Shown here one piece after another: positions 11,144 to 17,476 of a stretch of DNA of 64,000 nt. Each line of letters begins with the position of its first letter. Position 1 is the stretch's first letter. The notes beneath the pieces were generated by a model, which saw nothing but the letters and a program-made list of their open reading frames with translations, had not been told where the DNA came from and searched no databases. Source of the DNA: an uncultured Sphingomonas sp. (GTDB taxonomy: Bacteria; Pseudomonadota; Alphaproteobacteria; Sphingomonadales; Sphingomonadaceae); the NCBI RefSeq assembly GCF_937859915.1, contig NZ_CALMAW010000024.1:1-64000 (forward strand), given 5' to 3'. A program made the translations under genes and the position numbers.

Positions 11144-11806
11144 TTAGCGCCCCGGTCCATCCCGGCTCAGATCGTCGACCTGATCCATGATCGTCTGCAA
11201 CGCCGTGGTGTTCGGATCGGTCGTGTGCGTCCGTCGTGATGGCAATTTGCCGTCCGTCAACAGAGCCTCCAGCGCGACGCGACCGCGCGCGACGCGGCTC
11301 TTGATCGTGCCGACGGCGCATCCGCAAATCTCGGCCGCCTCTTCATAGGCGAAGCCGCCCGCGCCGACGAGGATCAACGCCTCGCGCTGCGGTTGGGGGA
11401 GATGGAGCAACGCACGCTGCATGTCGCCAAGTTCGACGTGGCGATCCTGACTGGCCGGTGCAGCGAGCAGCTTGTTGGCGGTGATCTCGTCCCACTCGCC
11501 CTTGAACCGCGCGCGGCGCATCTGGCTGAGGAACAGATTGCGCAGGATGATGAAGGTCCAGGCACGCATGTTGGTCCCGGCCTGGAAACGCTGACGCGCC
11601 GCCCAGGCCTTGAGCAACGTCTCTTGCACCAGATCGTCGGCGAGGTCGCGATTGCCCGAGAGCGAGCGACCGAAAGCACGCAGATGCGGGATGACCTGCG
11701 CCAACTGCGTCTTGAATTCATTGTCGGGCAGCGGCGTGTGGACGTAGGGAACTTCCTCGCCTGCCTCGTCAGCGCCTTCCACATCCTGCGGAACGTCGGT
11801 CGTCAT
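11144..11806 (-). CDS. ecfG: ECF-type general stress response sigma factor EcfG
   Basis: A 220-residue ECF sigma factor. Region 2 runs from about residue 40 with GNRDLADDLVQETLLKAW and the -10-contacting NMRAWTFIILRNLFLSQMRR. Region 4 contains LPQPQREALILVGAGGFAYEEAA, then CAVGTIKSRVARGR as the -35-binding helix. EcfG directs the alphaproteobacterial GSR from promoters of the form GGAAC-N16/17-CGTT, several of which occur in this locus. A strong GGGGGAC ribosome site lies just before the ATG. It follows a 45-residue membrane protein gene that has an EcfG promoter, so sigma and small gene are probably one autoregulated unit. The tail beyond region 4 (about residues 180-220) is unusually long and polar. 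Confidence 0.92.
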   Translation of the reverse strand: MTTDVPQDVEGADEAGEEVPYVHTPLPDNEFKTQLAQVIPHLRAFGRSLSGNRDLADDLVQETLLKAWAARQRFQAGTNMRAWTFIILRNLFLSQMRRARFKGEWDEITANKLLAAPASQDRHVELGDMQRALLHLPQPQREALILVGAGGFAYEEAAEICGCAVGTIKSRVARGRVALEALLTDGKLPSRRTHTTDPNTTALQTIMDQVDDLSRDGPGR

Positions 11807-11915: not shown

Positions 11916-12053
11916 CTAACGGTTGATAAACAACAGGATAGCGAAGATCACGATGATCGCCGCCAGCGAGATGCCGAGCACGTAGCGGACCGTATTGGTC
12001 TTCTGTCCGCCCCGAGCCTCGGTAGCGGACAGATGGGTCTGCTTATCGTCCAT
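11916..12053 (-). CDS. 45-residue single-pass membrane protein in the ecfG unit
   Basis: The ORF runs from ATG at 12053 to TAG at 11916. A polar N-terminus (MDDKQTHLSATEARGG) leads into a 20-residue hydrophobic helix (VLGISLAAIIVIFAILLF) ending with INR, so a small inner-membrane protein with its N-terminus probably in the cytoplasm. A GGGAGAG ribosome site stands about 7 bases before the ATG, and a perfect EcfG promoter ends 30 bases before it. ecfG follows after 109 bases. The context implies stress induction; the function is unknown. Confidence 0.7.
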   Translation of the reverse strand: MDDKQTHLSATEARGGQKTNTVRYVLGISLAAIIVIFAILLFINR

Positions 12054-12110: not shown

Positions 12111-12908
12111 TCAGGCGGGAACCGTCGACGTGTCGAAGAACAGCGCCTGTGCGATCGCGGCTTTGACGGTCGATCGCTGGAACGGCTTGGTGATCAGGAA
12201 GGTCGGCTCGGGCCGCTCGCCGGTGAGCAATCGCTCGGGGAAGGCGGTGATGAAGATCACGGGCACTTCGAATTGGGCCAGGATGTCCTTGACCGCGTCG
12301 ATGCCCGAACTGTCGTCGGCCAACTGGATGTCGGCAAGCACGAGACCGGGGCGACGCGCCATCGCCTGCGCGACCGCCTCGTCGCGGGTCACCGCAACGC
12401 CGGTGACGCCATGGCCGAGATCACGCACGATCGTCTCGAGATCCATGGCGATGATCGGCTCGTCCTCGATGATCAGCACGTCGGCATGGGTCTGGCGCTC
12501 GATCTCGGACAAGGCATCGGCGACCAGCGTGTCGACCTCGTCGGTATCGACGCCGATCAGATAGGCGGCATCCTCGCTGGTGAAGCCTTCCATCGCGGTC
12601 AGCAGCAGCGCCTGGCGCGAGCGCGGGGTGATGCGGGCAAGGCGCGCCTGCGCGATCACCTCGGGTTGGGCATTGTCCTGCCCGCCATCGACGCCGGTCT
12701 CGACATTGGCGGACGACCAGATCGCCTGGAAGGTGCGATAAAGGCCAAGCCGCGGATCGACATCACGCGGAAAATCTTCCGGCGCCGCAACGATCGCCTC
12801 GAGCGTCGCGCGGACATAAGCATCGCCCTGTTTCTGGGTGCCGGTCAGCGCGCGCGCATAGCGCCGTACGAACGGAAGATGCGGCGCAAGATCTTGTCCA
12901 AGCGACAT
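12111..12908 (-). CDS. phyR: General stress response anti-anti-sigma factor PhyR
   Basis: A 265-residue response regulator with an inverted layout: an EcfG-like domain (about residues 1-135) followed by a receiver domain (about 142-262). The receiver has the acidic pocket in IIEDEPI, the phospho-acceptor D193 in LADIQL, the conserved T in FITAFPE and K in ITKPF. When phosphorylated, the sigma-like part binds NepR and frees EcfG. ATG at 12908 is chosen; the longer frame upstream runs into the promoter region of the divergent nepR. Neighbours are ecfG downstream and nepR-phyP divergent, the classic GSR locus. Confidence 0.95.
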   Translation of the reverse strand: MSLGQDLAPHLPFVRRYARALTGTQKQGDAYVRATLEAIVAAPEDFPRDVDPRLGLYRTFQAIWSSANVETGVDGGQDNAQPEVIAQARLARITPRSRQALLLTAMEGFTSEDAAYLIGVDTDEVDTLVADALSEIERQTHADVLIIEDEPIIAMDLETIVRDLGHGVTGVAVTRDEAVAQAMARRPGLVLADIQLADDSSGIDAVKDILAQFEVPVIFITAFPERLLTGERPEPTFLITKPFQRSTVKAAIAQALFFDTSTVPA

Positions 12909-13021
12909 AAATATTTCCCAACTCCAATGCGGGGCACCTAATGGCCCAGCGCCGGATCCGCATTTGCAATGCGCCCCGCCCCTGCGATGACCGCCCCACA
13001 GCCTAAGGTTCATCAGGGGGT

Positions 13022-13045
13022 GGAACCAACGTGCGACTTTTTTGT
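13022..13045 (+). promoter_or_regulatory. EcfG-type promoter for nepR-phyP
   Basis: GGAAC at 13022-13026, then 16 bases and TGTT (13043-13046), or 17 bases to GTT. This fits GGAAC-N16-CGTT except for T in place of C. It lies in the phyR/nepR divergent gap, about 100 bases before the nepR start, and would let EcfG drive its own anti-sigma factor and PhyP as negative feedback. Confidence 0.6.
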
Positions 13046-13147
13046 TTCCACGGCCACGCGAGGATTTTATCGCGGTATCTCTGCTGACCGTCTACACAGC
13101 CTGGGAAGGGCGTGTGGCGTGCGGCCGGCGACTGGGGACGGGGCACG

Positions 13148-13315
13148 TTGGCGTTGAGCGACGAAAAGAAGACCAAGCGTAAGACCGGGGGCAAGCCATC
13201 CAGCGACGGCACCGCCGACCGCGACGTTGGCCATGCGCTTCGATCGGTCTATTCCAAGACCGTGAGCGAGGATGTCCCCTCTGAGCTGCTGGACCTTCTA
13301 GGCAAGCTTAGCTGA
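13148..13315 (+). CDS. nepR: Anti-sigma factor NepR
   Basis: A 55-residue helical protein with a lysine-rich start (SDEKKTKRK) and the NepR core DVGHALRSVY...VPSELLDLLGKL made of two helices. NepR holds EcfG inactive until phosphorylated PhyR sequesters it. The start is probably TTG at 13148 or TTG at 13154, since a GGGGACGGGG ribosome site lies at 13134-13143; a GTG at 13112 is a less likely alternative. It is divergent from phyR and 5 bases ahead of phyP, so the two are co-transcribed. Confidence 0.85.
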   Translation: MALSDEKKTKRKTGGKPSSDGTADRDVGHALRSVYSKTVSEDVPSELLDLLGKLS

Positions 13316-13320
13316 CGGGC

Positions 13321-14907
13321 GTGCCCGCCGCCGCGCCATCGGAATCCATGTCGCAGCCTTCGTCCATGCTTCGTGCGTTCGCGCGGCTGTCGACCAGCCT
13401 GAAAATTCTCATCGTGCTGTCGCTGGCCTTGCTGCCGCTGGGCATCATCGCGTCACTCGCCTCGATCGAGACAGCAAAGGCCAATCGCACGAATCGCGAG
13501 GCGGCCGCGCGCCTGCTCGCGAACGACAGCGCCGAACGTTTCAACCTTTATATCGACCATGTCGCTGGGCTCCTCCATGCCGCCCAGCGGAACGGCCCAG
13601 CCGGCTGCCGCCGTGCGATCACCGCGCTGGACGCACCGGGCGCGGCCGTCGCGATCTTCAACGCTGGCGGCAAGCTGATCTGCTCGAGCCGCCCGCTGGT
13701 CGCGACCTCGCCGATGCTGGCGGCCGGCCCCGCCCCGATCGCAACGATCGATGGCGAGGATCAGGCGGTTCGCCTGATCGCGAGCGCCGGCGACGTGCCC
13801 GGCTGGGCGTTCGCCGTGCTACCCAAGGCGCTGTTGGCCCGCTCGCTGCATCCCAATGCGCTCGACGGCAGCTATGCGCTCCGGCTCGACGACCAGAGCG
13901 GCCAGACGCTGAGCCTCGCCACGATCGAGAGCGTCCCGCTCGGCCGCAGCGTGTTGGCCAGTTTCCCGATCGCCGGCGGCCAGCTGCGGCTGACGATGAC
14001 GATCGCGACCCCGCCGCTCAGTGCCAACGAGATCCTGCTCACGCTTCTGCCGCTGCTGATGTGGATCTCGGCCGCCGCGATCGGCTGGCTGGTCGTTGAC
14101 AGGCTGATCCTGCGCCCGCTCGACGCGATGCAGGAGGCGGTCGACCGCTACCGGCTCACCGGCCATTTCGAAACGCCGCCGCTCACCACCCCCGCCCTCG
14201 AGATCCGCACGCTGGGTCACGCCTTCCAGCGCGCCGCGCTGACGATCACGCGGCATGAGGCCGAGCTCGAGGAGGGTCTTGCCCGGCAGACCAAGCTGAC
14301 CCGCGAGGTCCATCATCGCGTCAAGAACAACCTTCAGGTCGTCGCCAGCCTGCTCAACATTCACGCGCGCGGCGCCCGCACGCCCGAGGCCGCCGACGCC
14401 TATGCCACGATCCAGCGCCGGGTCGACGCGTTGGCGCTCGTCCACCGCAGCCATTATGCCGAGCTTGAGGTCAACCAGGGCATCGCGCTGCGCCCGCTGA
14501 TCGGCGAGCTCGCCGCCAATCTGCGCCGGTCACTCCCGGGTAAGATCAAGCCGCCGGTGATCTCGCTCGCTGTCGGCCTTTTCCATGTCCAGCAGGACGC
14601 TGCGATCTCCGCTGCCTTCCTGCTCGTCGAGCTGGTCGAGACCGCAATGACGCGGCTGCCCGGCACGACGATCGCGATCACGCTAGAGGCGGTGCGCGGC
14701 CGCGGCGATCGCGCCCTGCTGACGGTCCGCTCGCCCGCGCTGGCACGCGACGCCGCCCCGGTCGACGACCGCTTCGAGCTGTTCGAGCGCGTCGTCGGCG
14801 GACTGGCCCGCCAGATTCGCGCGCCGCTCGAGCGCGACGAAGTCCGCGGGACCGCGACAATCGAGCTCACCGTATTGGACGAGGCGACGCGCGCCGGCGC
14901 CGCCTGA
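13321..14907 (+). CDS. phyP: PhyP-like HisKA_2 sensor protein with a degenerate ATPase domain
   Basis: A 528-residue membrane protein: transmembrane helices at about 28-48 and 238-260 enclose a periplasmic sensor domain, followed by a HAMP-like linker and a HisKA_2 dimerisation domain with H332 in EVHHRVKNNLQ. The remaining 170 residues should hold the HATPase domain, but the N-box asparagine is missing (ELVETAMTRL where E-x-x-x-N is expected) and I find no DxGxG G1 box or G2 box. From general knowledge, sphingomonad PhyP, encoded beside phyR, is thought to act as a PhyR phosphatase rather than a kinase. The start is GTG at 13321; ATG at 13348 is an alternative. Confidence 0.75.
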   Translation: MPAAAPSESMSQPSSMLRAFARLSTSLKILIVLSLALLPLGIIASLASIETAKANRTNREAAARLLANDSAERFNLYIDHVAGLLHAAQRNGPAGCRRAITALDAPGAAVAIFNAGGKLICSSRPLVATSPMLAAGPAPIATIDGEDQAVRLIASAGDVPGWAFAVLPKALLARSLHPNALDGSYALRLDDQSGQTLSLATIESVPLGRSVLASFPIAGGQLRLTMTIATPPLSANEILLTLLPLLMWISAAAIGWLVVDRLILRPLDAMQEAVDRYRLTGHFETPPLTTPALEIRTLGHAFQRAALTITRHEAELEEGLARQTKLTREVHHRVKNNLQVVASLLNIHARGARTPEAADAYATIQRRVDALALVHRSHYAELEVNQGIALRPLIGELAANLRRSLPGKIKPPVISLAVGLFHVQQDAAISAAFLLVELVETAMTRLPGTTIAITLEAVRGRGDRALLTVRSPALARDAAPVDDRFELFERVVGGLARQIRAPLERDEVRGTATIELTVLDEATRAGAA

Positions 14908-14991
14908 GCGCTCAGCCTCGCTTTGCAGCGGGCGCCCCGTGCCGTCGCGCCGCCCTGCTCGCCGCGCATCGCCAGAAATTTCGCCAGCGCC

Positions 14992-15016
14992 GGAACCGCT
15001 CTCGGTCTTGCCCGTT
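14992..15016 (+). promoter_or_regulatory. Canonical EcfG promoter
   Basis: GGAAC at 14992-14996, 16 bases, then CGTT at 15013-15016: an exact match to the EcfG consensus. Transcription would begin near 15022-15025, right at the foot of the first hairpin described below and about 200 bases before the next ORF. Confidence 0.75.
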
Positions 15017-15022
15017 TTATAC

Positions 15023-15120
15023 CACGGATAGCGACCTTTTGCCCCCCCGCTCTCGCTATCCATCCATACCGGGCCCGGTACCCCGTCTTCCCCCCCAGAC
15101 GGCGTTCCGGGCCCAAATTG
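15023..15120 (+). ncRNA. Candidate EcfG-controlled small RNA or structured leader with two C-rich loops
   Basis: Hairpin 1 pairs GGATAGCGA (15026-15034) with TCGCTATCC (15053-15061), 9 perfect pairs, and its 18-base loop contains seven consecutive C. Hairpin 2 pairs GGGCCCGG (15071-15078) with CCGGGCCC (15107-15114) and, inside that, CCGTCT (15083-15088) with AGACGG (15097-15102), closing on the loop TCCCCCCC. Unpaired C-runs resemble anti-Shine-Dalgarno loops of alphaproteobacterial sRNAs such as Caulobacter GsrN. No U-tract follows hairpin 2 (AAATTG does), so it may be a separate RNA processed from, or simply the leader of, the entericidin-like mRNA. Confidence 0.5.
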
Positions 15121-15153
15121 TATCCGACGAAGATCGCAGACGCGCCAAGTTGC

Positions 15154-15178
15154 GGAACCATTGTTTCGGGGGCGCATT
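15154..15178 (+). promoter_or_regulatory. Weak EcfG-like promoter before the entericidin-like gene
   Basis: GGAAC at 15154-15158, 16 bases, then CATT (15175-15178), one mismatch from CGTT. It is 48 bases before the ATG at 15226, a sensible leader length. It may be a second, weaker EcfG site. Confidence 0.35.
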
Positions 15179-15225
15179 GTCCGGACGGCGACGACGCATC
15201 ATGCTCGTCAGGTAAGGAGCTCATC

Positions 15226-15363
15226 ATGGTTCGCAAGATTTTGACCGTTGGACTGATCGCTGGCACGTTCGCAATTTCCGCCTGCAACACCGTTGCCGGC
15301 GCTGGCAAGGACGTCTCTTCGGTCGGTCACGCGACCACGAAGGCCGCCGACAGCAACAAGTAA
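15226..15363 (+). CDS. ecnB: Entericidin A/B-family small lipoprotein
   Basis: A 45-residue protein with a basic start (MVRK), a hydrophobic helix and a lipobox ending at C20 (AISAC), followed by NTVAGAGKDVSSVGHATTKA, the typical entericidin pattern. The mature peptide is a 26-residue outer-envelope lipoprotein of unclear role. ATG at 15226 has the ribosome site GGTAAGGAG. The gene lies in the GSR locus behind one perfect and one imperfect EcfG promoter, so stress control is likely. It ends in a strong terminator. Confidence 0.85.
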   Translation: MVRKILTVGLIAGTFAISACNTVAGAGKDVSSVGHATTKAADSNK

Positions 15364-15387
15364 GTCCGTCCCCGGACGAGCTAGCGA

Positions 15388-15417
15388 GGGCGCTGCCGGC
15401 AACGGCGGCGCCCTTTT
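15388..15417 (+). terminator. Rho-independent terminator after the entericidin-like gene
   Basis: GGGCGCTGCCG (15388-15398), loop GCAA, CGGCGGCGCCC (15403-15413), then TTTT. The stem is 11 pairs with one G-T wobble. It closes the plus-strand GSR unit before the oppositely oriented tatC. Confidence 0.8.
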
Positions 15418-15435
15418 CGCGTCGGATGTCGGGAC

Positions 15436-16203
15436 CTAAGCGGCTTCGGCTTCGCGCGCGCGGCGGCGCTCGGTGAACCAGATCGCGATCAGCGCGAACT
15501 CGTAGAGCAGCACCAGCGGCACCGCGAGCAGCAGCATCGACACGACATCGGGCGGCGCCAGCAATGCGGCGATGCCGAAGATCGCGACCACCGCATAGCG
15601 CCGGCCCTTGACGAGCTGGGTGCGCGTGACGATCCCCGCGCGCTCGAGCAGCATCATCAGCACCGGCAGTAGAAACGCGACGCCGAAGCCGAACAGGAAT
15701 TTGGTGACGAAGGCGAGATAATTGCCGATCGCCGGCAGCGCCTCCTGCTGGATCCCGCCGACATTGCCCTGGAAACCGAGCAGGAAGTGCAGCGCCAGTG
15801 GCATCGCCATATAATAGGCCATCGCCGCGCCCGACAGGAACAGCACTGGGGTCAGGATGAGGAACGGCAGCAGCGCGCGCTTCTCCTTGCCGTAGAGCCC
15901 GGGTGCGACGAACCGCCAGATCTGGTTGGCGACGACGGGGAAGCTCAGCATGATCGCCGAAAATAGCGCCACCTTGAGCTTGGCGAAAAACGCCTCGAAC
16001 ACGTCGGTATAGATCAGCTTGCCCTGACCCGCACGCAGCAGCGGCTGAACCAGGAAGGCGAAGATATTCTCCGCGAAATAATAGCACACGCAGAACGCCA
16101 GCCCGAGCGCAGCGAACGCCCAGATCAGCCGGCGCCTGAGCTCGATCAGATGTTCGAGAAGCGGCGCACGCGTGTCGTCGAGCTCGTCCTCGCCCCCGGT
16201 CAT
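15436..16203 (-). CDS. tatC: Sec-independent protein translocase subunit TatC
   Basis: A 255-residue polytopic inner-membrane protein, the twin-arginine signal receptor of the Tat pathway. It shows the N-terminal LLEHLIELRRRLIW motif, the FAENIFAFLVQPL first periplasmic segment, the conserved FxAxLKVALF start of TM2, and the FVAPGLYGKEKRALLPF loop. Six hydrophobic helices are visible. It follows tatB by 3 bases and tatA before that, so the operon encodes the full TatABC translocase. Confidence 0.95.
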   Translation of the reverse strand: MTGGEDELDDTRAPLLEHLIELRRRLIWAFAALGLAFCVCYYFAENIFAFLVQPLLRAGQGKLIYTDVFEAFFAKLKVALFSAIMLSFPVVANQIWRFVAPGLYGKEKRALLPFLILTPVLFLSGAAMAYYMAMPLALHFLLGFQGNVGGIQQEALPAIGNYLAFVTKFLFGFGVAFLLPVLMMLLERAGIVTRTQLVKGRRYAVVAIFGIAALLAPPDVVSMLLLAVPLVLLYEFALIAIWFTERRRAREAEAA

Positions 16204-16206
16204 CGT

Positions 16207-16581
16207 TCAGCCCTGCCGCTGGGCTTCAGCGGGCGGTGTCGGCTGATGCTCAAGCGCGACGGCCGCCTCGGACGGTGACGCGATCGCAGGCACAGACGCA
16301 GGCGCCGCGATCTCCCCGGCCGGCGTCGCCCCACCGCCGATCAGATCGGCATGCTCGCGCATGATCCGCTCGTTCTCGGCTTTCCACTTCGCTTCCATCT
16401 CATGCAACTCGGCATCGCGGACCATGTCGTCCATCGCGGTGCGGAAATGGCGTGCCATCGTCCGCCCCTTGCCGACCCACTGGCCGACGAAGCGCATCAC
16501 GCGCGGCAGGTCCTTGGGACCAATGAAGACAATCGCGACGAGGGCCACGAGCATCATCTCGGACGGGGCGATATCGAACAT
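16207..16581 (-). CDS. tatB: Sec-independent protein translocase subunit TatB
   Basis: A 124-residue protein with one N-terminal membrane helix (MLVALVAIVFIGPKDLPRV), the glutamate at position 8 (MFDIAPSE) typical of TatB, and the FIGPKDLP hinge. A long amphipathic helix (about 35-80) and a proline/alanine-rich tail follow. TatB with TatC forms the substrate receptor. It lies between tatA and tatC. Confidence 0.92.
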   Translation of the reverse strand: MFDIAPSEMMLVALVAIVFIGPKDLPRVMRFVGQWVGKGRTMARHFRTAMDDMVRDAELHEMEAKWKAENERIMREHADLIGGGATPAGEIAAPASVPAIASPSEAAVALEHQPTPPAEAQRQG

Positions 16582-16616
16582 CGACGCTCAGTGCTGGAGG
16601 GACGGTCGCGACGCGC

Positions 16617-16871
16617 TCAGTCGTGCGGCCGGTCGTCGCGCATCGGCTGGAGGTTGCGATCGACGGTCGGATCGAGCGGCGCCTGCTGCTGAAGCTGCGC
16701 GGTGGTACGCGGCGGCACGGGATGGGTGGCGTCGTCTTCGTCAGCCATGCCCTTCTTGAACTGCTTCACGCCCTTGGCGACATCGCCCATCAACGCGGAG
16801 AAGCGGCCGCCGCCGAGCAGGAGCGCCGCGACCACGGCGAGAAGCAGGATGTGCGGAAGGGACAGGCCCAT
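16617..16871 (-). CDS. tatA: Sec-independent protein translocase subunit TatA
   Basis: An 84-residue single-pass protein that oligomerises to form the Tat channel. The N-terminal helix (PHILLLAVVAALLL) leads into a GGGRFSALMGDVAKGVKQFKKG amphipathic helix that matches TatA, although the usual F-G hinge is replaced by GGGRF as in other alphaproteobacteria. The tail is charged and ends with DDRPHD. It is 32 bases after scpB and 35 before tatB. Confidence 0.92.
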   Translation of the reverse strand: MGLSLPHILLLAVVAALLLGGGRFSALMGDVAKGVKQFKKGMADEDDATHPVPPRTTAQLQQQAPLDPTVDRNLQPMRDDRPHD

Positions 16872-16903
16872 GACAAATCTCCGGAAGGATAATTAACCCC
16901 TAT

Positions 16904-17476
16904 CTAGGCGTCATCGTCGCCGCTTGCTACCTCGACGTTGAAAAGCGCTTCGTCGACCGGATCGAGCAGCCCCGCGGCGCGCAGATCGTCGATCCCCGGC
17001 AGGTCGCGCCGGCTGGCCAGGCCGAAATGCGTGAGGAAGCTTGCGGTGGTCGCGTAGATCAGCGGCCGCCCCGGCACCTCGCGCCGGCCGGCCGGCCGCA
17101 CCCAGCCAGCCTCCATCAGCACGTCGAGCGTCCCCTTAGAGATCTGGACGCCGCGAATCGCCTCGATCTCGGCCCGGCTGACGGGCTCGTGATAGGCGAT
17201 GATCGCCAATGTCTCGATCGCAGCGCGGCTAAGCCGACGCGGTTCTTCGCGCGTTCGGCGCAGGATGTGCGCAAGATCGGGCGCGGTTTCGAAATGCCAG
17301 CGTCCGCCGCGTTCGACCGGCCGAATGCCACGCGACGCATAGCGCTCGACGAGCGTCGCGAGGGCGGTAGCGACATCGACGCCCTCTCCCGCCGCGGCCG
17401 CGATCTCGGCGACCGACAGCGACTGCTCGGCGGCGAACAACACCGCCTCGACGGCTCGATCGTCATGCCCGATCAT
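16904..17476 (-). CDS. scpB: Segregation and condensation protein ScpB
   Basis: A 190-residue winged-helix kleisin partner of the SMC-ScpAB condensin, needed for chromosome compaction and segregation. It shows the ScpB pattern of an N-terminal AVEALFAAEQSLSVAEIA-like segment, the ALATLVERYASRGIRPVERGGRW hinge, and AAIETLAIIAYHEPVSRAEIE with RGVQISKGTLDVL in the second winged helix. The ATG at 17476 overlaps the scpA stop by 4 bases (ATGA). Confidence 0.93.
   Translation of the reverse strand: MIGHDDRAVEAVLFAAEQSLSVAEIAAAAGEGVDVATALATLVERYASRGIRPVERGGRWHFETAPDLAHILRRTREEPRRLSRAAIETLAIIAYHEPVSRAEIEAIRGVQISKGTLDVLMEAGWVRPAGRREVPGRPLIYATTASFLTHFGLASRRDLPGIDDLRAAGLLDPVDEALFNVEVASGDDDA

Follow-up and report, generated by a model that had tools for sequence, protein, structure and literature searches.

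A candidate RNA between phyP and ecnB

Most of what is understood about the alphaproteobacterial general stress response (GSR) concerns its proteins. A post-transcriptional arm is already known from Caulobacter, and a sphingomonad relative is named as lacking one in the available text of PMC5869019. The sphingomonad DNA analysed here, a stretch of 64,000 nucleotides referred to as the window, raises the question of whether such an arm is encoded in the GSR locus itself, as an EcfG-type promoter is followed there by two hairpins (whole feature, 14992-15125, + strand). Our reading, held at a probability of about 0.7, is that this feature is a free-standing, EcfG-driven small regulatory RNA whose C-rich loops pair with G-runs, with nepR as the favoured target. 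Sequence comparison supports the promoter, the two hairpins, their C-loops, the locus and the nepR G-tract as its elements. A large part of one family thereby gains a candidate RNA in the core locus, for which loop, promoter and model are all defined.

Neighbouring genes were identified using Pfam and NCBIfam. These are an ecfG-like ECF sigma factor gene (11144-11806, -), phyR (12111-12941, -; NF006623 above cut-off), the anti-sigma factor gene nepR (ORF as listed, 13112-13315, +; PF18557) and, as upstream neighbour, a phyP-like HWE/HisKA_2 sensor kinase gene (13321-14907, +), which we take to be phyP. An ecnB-like gene for an entericidin-family lipoprotein lies downstream (15226-15363, +; PF08085), and TatC is also among the neighbours identified. 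Because these are an EcfG-like sigma factor, PhyR, NepR, a kinase, an entericidin and TatC, the feature lies inside the GSR locus, between phyP and ecnB, where the first-pass annotation had placed it. Between phyR and ecfG lies a conserved ORF (11916-12053, -) of 45 aa that includes a membrane-like segment and has no Pfam or NCBIfam match.

The -35 element GGAAC (14992-14996, +) and the -10 element CGTT (15013-15016, +), separated by a 16-nt spacer, were read in the sequence and are present in relatives. The EcfG promoter that the annotation had claimed is thus found as GGAAC-N16-CGTT at 14992-15016, at start-site distance before hairpin 1, and transcription would start near 15023. Upstream of the -35 element, the window carries an A/T-rich, UP-like stretch, AAATTT (14976-14981, +); among the matches listed (129 distinct loci), the A/T fraction at positions 13 to 17 upstream of GGAAC is 0.84-0.94. 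Exact GGAAC-N16/17-CGTT sites occur only twice in the 64-kb window, at 14992 (+) and 12108 (-). The latter (12108-12083, -) is aimed at the small ORF and ecfG, which suggests autoregulation. A separate EcfG-like site, GGAAC-N16-CATT (15154-15178, +), was read ahead of the entericidin gene, with GGAAC at 15154-15158 and CATT at 15175-15178. Its spacer, GTTTCGGGGGCG, is near-identical in several other own-genus genomes, beyond the promoter elements.

Hairpin 1 (15026-15061, +), supported by both fold and covariation, comprises a 9-bp stem and the loop CCUUUUGCCCCCCCGCUC. Its arms are GGATAGCGA (15026-15034) and TCGCTATCC (15053-15061), and its loop, CCTTTTGCCCCCCCGCTC, exposes seven cytosines (C7) at 15042-15048, as had been annotated. 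The near-invariant loop motif CCUUUUGCCCCCCCGCUCU (15035-15053, +), which contains this C7, is the proposed seed. Hairpin 2 (15071-15114, +) is terminator-like, with a C7 loop at 15090-15096; of the nested 8+6-bp hairpin described earlier, the C7 loop stands and the stem is corrected to 8+2+6 bp. It is followed by an A/T-rich 3' stretch, AAATTGTATCC (15115-15125, +), which forms a weak U-tract. At positions 4 to 7 past hairpin 2, the T fraction is 0.51-0.59 in 123 core sequences (5 of the 128, with odd hairpin-2 length, were omitted), so that in many relatives, as in the window, the T-tract is a weak one, though the hairpin itself is strong. The earlier statement that no ORF follows for 200 bases holds from the start site; counted from hairpin 2, the entericidin start at 15226 is about 110 nt away.

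The region 15021-15125 folds at -45.5 kcal/mol (z = -7.8), and none of 200 shuffles folds equally well. The opposite strand also folds well (z = -6.4), as expected of any hairpin; the RNA strand was taken as + because of the promoter and the T-rich stretch past hairpin 2. Runs of C7 or longer are scarce in the 64-kb window, with five in total and no G7 or longer run; the three further C7+ runs are at 1856, 5870 and 9244.

Conservation and covariation

We performed a BLAST search with the 189-nt region, which was found in 12 of 40 relatives, namely all 10 genomes of the genus (its own included) and two from other genera. The loop motif is present in all 11 other genomes matched by the whole 189-nt region. 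In a collection with one genome per species, the exact loop 20-mer was found at least 119 times (a count of stretches rather than of distinct genomes). Taxa among the matches listed are Sphingomonas, Stakelama, Sphingomicrobium, Sphingosinicella, Allosphingosinicella and Parasphingopyxis, together with unassigned sphingomonad or alphaproteobacterial bins. A plasmid collection gave no match.

The promoter was scored in relatives as GGAAC-N15-18-[N]GTT or CATT. It lies upstream of all 114 checkable loop-20-mer matches, whereas the same pattern was found at 261 of 20,000 random positions (1.3%) in the same loci. As the 20-mer search was blind to the promoter, this is independent evidence that promoter and hairpins form one unit. 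Over all fetched loci, the promoter is present in 151 of 151 complete matches (129 distinct, among the matches listed), a count that includes our own copy, duplicates and 14 loci from a BLAST search whose query contained the promoter; 5 of the 156 matches, too close to a contig end, were omitted. The distance from the end of the -10 element to the motif is 21 nt in 145 of the 151, 22 nt in five and 20 nt in one, and the promoter spacers in relatives are 16 or 17 nt.

Alignments were inspected for compensatory change, the absence of which had been named in the annotation as grounds for refuting it. The first alignment (A1) comprises 70 of the 128 core sequences, chosen by k-mer difference and including our own; a paralogue was excluded and three sequences were trimmed at the 3' end. 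The hairpins are kept by compensatory change, since 19 of 24 stem pairs in A1 have changes on both sides and 96.5% of cells are paired, against at most 46.8% when the partner is slid by 1-3 columns. Across the 70 sequences, two-sided changes are seen at 5 of the 9 pairs of helix 1, in which 99.8% of cells are paired, and at 14 of the 15 pairs of hairpin 2. A deeper set (A2) of 54 hand-chosen sources, aligned by covariance model and thus leaning towards the model, has 27 of 28 pairs doubly changed and 93.8% of cells paired, against at most 42% in slid controls.

Loop 1 contains C7 in 126 and C6 in two of the 128 core sequences, and loop 2 has runs of 5 to 13 C in the same set. Since the core 20-mer search fixed the C7 of loop 1, part of this loop's invariance is built into the core set, and the unselected set weighs more. 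Sixty model matches, hand-picked for divergence, extra copies or doubt, were fetched. The promoter is present in 38 of these, and 36 of the 38 carry C5 or longer runs in both halves, with both stems differing; among the 22 without promoter, seven do so. Among divergent relatives, the sequence flanking the C-run in the loop drifts, and it is mainly the C-run that is retained. Aligned lengths modulo 3 are spread 19/23/28; with no consistent multiple of three, the region is not coding. Judged by these comparisons, the promoter with its two C-loop hairpins is a conserved RNA gene.

Distribution and gene context

The covariance search proposed in the annotation was run genome-wide. Model R1 matched 129 of 298 family genomes at E 0.01; model R2 matched 127 of 298, about two in five, at E 0.001, in 46 of 96 genera. 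Some of the weakest R1 and R2 matches in the family look like chance, and the promoter-less weak matches L228-L231, L236, L257, L259, L261, L268 and L269 were taken as such. In the order, R2 matched 18 of 118 genomes, 16 of them in the window's own family and the other two weakly. One genome outside the family with a weak R2 match (G026) has two C-loop hairpins and no EcfG promoter. In the class, R1 matched 3 of 289 genomes, two of the window's family and G441. The G441 element (L235), from another family of the class, has two hairpins, their loops containing C7 and C5, and no GGAAC promoter, and may be convergent, transferred or due to chance. By this count almost nothing like the RNA appears outside the family.

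Rfam 15 gave no match for window positions 13000-17000 at E up to 5, a single tRNA for 20 loci at gathering score, and two weak matches, neither over the RNA, for three loci at E up to 10. The possibility that genomes without an R2 match hide a diverged copy near tatC was also considered and rejected, as the neighbourhoods of 28 such family genomes (27 readable; G050 was cut at a contig end) contained no EcfG site with two C-runs. On the tatC side of one genome without an R2 match (G011), an EcfG-like site is followed by one C6 run and then a small ORF.

The usual site of the RNA is between phyP and ecnB-tatC. Loci with too little flank were left out of the synteny counts, which retain 122 and 113 of the 129 core loci and 39 of the 40 deep ones. 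Of 122 core loci, 113 have a PhyP-type kinase on the same strand no more than 600 nt upstream. Of the 113 core loci scored downstream, 99 have TatC on the opposite strand, 82 an entericidin-like ORF on the same strand, and 82 a loose-pattern EcfG-like site within 350 nt. In the divergent set of 39 loci, which includes some chance matches, the counts are 25 for downstream TatC, 22 for an entericidin-like ORF and only 9 for a close upstream PhyP-type kinase. As the covariance model is ignorant of genes, the shared gene context supports common descent.

A paralogue (L013/L219, G004:C1:2293348-2293441) bears the same 20-nt loop, unchanged, on a stem that is unrelated; it has a promoter of its own (GGAAC..CGTT) and ends in a classic terminator that lacks the second C-loop. 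In the surrounding stretch that was searched, no GSR or Tat protein of the window was found.

Comparison with known small RNAs

The CcsR/CuckooRNAs of Rhodobacter are stress-induced and expose a motif resembling an anti-Shine-Dalgarno sequence in two of their loops; they differ from the sphingomonad RNA in the motif (CCUCC), the sigma factors and the gene context. Erythrobacter litoralis is a sphingomonad relative. It has no apparent gsrN-like gene according to the available part of PMC5869019, which describes GsrN of Caulobacter crescentus as an EcfG/SigT-driven RNA, about 100 nt long, in which a C6 5' loop decides the targets, with many G-rich partners. The same part reports BLASTn homologues of GsrN in Caulobacteraceae only, others being predicted by position and promoter, and places the predicted homologues typically near ecfG, nepR or phyR (PMC5869019). 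The parallel with GsrN drawn in the first-pass annotation, with a C-rich loop as targeting element, is therefore apt, since the C6 5' loop is what chooses targets in the text available (PMC5869019).

The sphingomonad RNA resembles GsrN in having an EcfG-type promoter at start-site distance and a C-run exposed in the loop of its 5' hairpin. It resembles the typical GsrN homologues, though not that of C. crescentus itself, in being encoded near core GSR genes. The two are alike in the loop core as well: from GsrN target sites such as AAGUCGGGGGGCG, as far as the available text of PMC5869019 goes, the core of its loop would be GCCCCCCG, and the sphingomonad RNA has GCCCCCCCG. In contrast to GsrN, both hairpins of the sphingomonad RNA have C-run loops, the terminator-like one included, and the flanking loop sequence differs. 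GsrN has an intrinsic terminator as its 3' hairpin; the candidate counterpart in the sphingomonad RNA is a strong hairpin with a weak T-tract. GsrN is further marked by a stress-dependent transcript, an effect of Hfq and cleavage to a stable 5' form. For the katG leader, a target of GsrN, support is not clear in the genus genomes. We read the sphingomonad RNA as working like GsrN, a likeness drawn from the features compared, and as at most a candidate member of the same family.

PmaR of Agrobacterium is also a stable hairpin with a C-rich loop, which in PmaR is the part that pairs with targets; no EcfG link, such as the sphingomonad RNA has, is seen for it in the accessible part of PMC6234868. 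That part gives its range as Agrobacterium and a closely related Rhizobium only, and its regulation as mostly positive and away from ribosome sites (PMC6234868). Searches of the open full-text literature turned up no description of such a sphingomonad RNA. The terms 'sRNA' and 'small RNA' are absent from the main text, as available, of the sphingomonad GSR papers PMC6599016 and PMC7083833; the references of the latter, in the part available, cite a different sphingomonad RNA, SuhB.

nepR as candidate target

The annotation had suggested pairing with G-rich ribosome sites, and indirect support for such pairing comes from a candidate site at nepR, located 1.9 kb upstream of the RNA. The proposed pairing site is GGGGACGGGGCACG, in the ribosome-site region (13134-13147, +), with the G-tract GGGGACGGGG at 13134-13143. 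The nepR start codon is probably TTG at 13148 or 13154, inside the listed ORF. A G-run of at least 4 at -20 to -4 is present in 71 of 71 core loci with recognised nepR (at least 5 in 49); nepR had been recognised by motif, the 120 loci yielding 71 distinct leaders, and the best of all candidate starts was used. Among other orthologue-anchored starts in the same loci, G4+ was found in 86 of 691, among them ecfG (33/76), the small ORF (20/67, from tblastn relatives of the 45-aa ORF with a start), phyR (12/93) and TatA/B/C (7/247). These starts are a better control than an earlier one of 'other ORFs', which contains spurious antisense ORFs. On these counts nepR is the favoured target.

In 49 genomes without an R2 match, nepR has G4+ in 10 and G5+ in 3. 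These are the 51 top-scoring NepR genomes minus G202 and G072, which have R2 matches, and hence not a random sample; two of them, G062 and G124, have weak R1 matches, that of G124 judged to be chance. RNA-less genomes in genera with RNA-bearing members have G4 at nepR in one of three cases, and divergent RNA-bearing genomes have G4+ in 15 of 27. Further RNA-bearing sets gave 5 of 20, with some doubtful NepR matches, and 12 of 14 in an overlapping set. Because presence of the RNA follows clades, shared ancestry could explain the nepR contrast; p-values for the comparison with the other orthologue-anchored starts take no account of it and are not to be read literally. The nepR G-tract is predicted to be only 38% unpaired on average. 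The G4+ runs at ecfG would act in the opposite direction, and the window's own ecfG leader contains GGGGG, so that negative feedback on ecfG is possible too.

Other targets were looked for in the 10 genus genomes. Leaders of katG (10 loci in 9 of the 10 genomes) have no conserved G6 tract, though start sites are uncertain and those of L307 and L309 probably misread; the G004 katG has two G5 runs upstream. A search with the 16-nt loop complement, allowing up to 2 mismatches, gave no perfect match outside the RNA itself (two in G004, which has the paralogue), and a target of long complementarity was therefore rejected. Of 33 near-matches, 19 loci were read by eye (L287 in the wrong orientation). 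One was noticed at a start codon, that of ftsA in G002 (GGGGGGCAAATGG), with the same motif in G009; ftsA was rejected as a target because the motif is missing from the 7 readable of the 8 other genus ftsA starts.

Proposed mechanism and alternative explanations

From these features we infer transcription, termination at hairpin 2, pairing and the sign of regulation. RNA polymerase with EcfG would transcribe an RNA of about 100 nt (about 15023-15122), with its start very close to the base of hairpin 1 and its end at hairpin 2. The C-loops would pair with mRNA G-runs, mainly at ribosome-binding sites, and translation would be blocked or altered during stress. At nepR, a C-loop covering the ribosome site would lower NepR synthesis and leave EcfG free for longer; since EcfG is released as NepR falls, the RNA would strengthen its own induction or make it last longer. 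The second C-loop could serve to bind another target, or to hold two G-tracts. In its most specific form, a family-specific GSR-locus RNA that silences nepR by its C7 loop on the G-tract ribosome site as translational positive feedback, the proposal is tentative, and we would not bet on it at even odds. If true, the PhyR-NepR-EcfG partner switch would gain a translational positive-feedback arm, and with two C-loops a single RNA could hold a pair of mRNAs or of G-tracts. nepR is a concrete candidate target, which makes RNA tuning of the anti-sigma switch testable by a few point mutants in a laboratory Sphingomonas such as S. melonis Fr1.

A GsrN-like RNA with many mRNA targets and no special link to nepR, whose G-tract would be a pre-existing Shine-Dalgarno sequence, falls only a little short of an even chance. 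The exact loop motif in so many stretches is what a seed under many constraints would give, G-runs are partly present also at ecfG and the small conserved ORF, nepR keeps its G-run in some genomes without detected RNA, and GsrN has many G-rich partners according to the available part of PMC5869019. Against this, no other neighbour gene comes near the 71 of 71 of nepR, the three Tat genes jointly reaching 7 of 247. A C-loop bound by a protein, or titrating one, rather than pairing with mRNA is improbable: the entire loop is conserved in the core set, CCUUUU and GCUCU included, and no long complementary target was found in the genus genomes, but the drift of the flanks with retention of the C-run in divergent loci suits pairing with G-runs.

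That the hairpins form a long 5' leader, a regulatory UTR of the entericidin gene, would account for the entericidin-like ORF being next on the same strand at most core loci, and we consider it a little less probable still. It was set aside as the main reading because ecnB in the window has its own EcfG-like site past hairpin 2, with a loose site at a similar place in 82 of 113 core loci, and because the paralogue sits elsewhere, with no GSR or Tat protein of the window found in the stretch searched and a classic terminator at its end; hairpin 2 with its T-rich stretch also resembles a terminator. Chance hairpins, or a DNA-level element without RNA function, are very hard to reconcile with the compensatory changes, the fixed promoter distance and the conserved locus, and we give this almost no weight. 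The free-standing regulatory RNA thus stays our preferred reading.

Additional copies and divergent forms

A few genomes carry extra copies of the RNA, G004 with its paralogue among them, and G021 has three. A locus in G021 (L258, G021:C7 near 148377) has three consecutive hairpins, each with a C6-C7 loop, and no GGAAC promoter was seen directly upstream. In genus g4, L224 and L227 have two hairpins, the first loop lacking a C-run, with no clear EcfG promoter, and NepR was not found in their genomes. The L224 hairpins lie upstream of TatC, the usual place.
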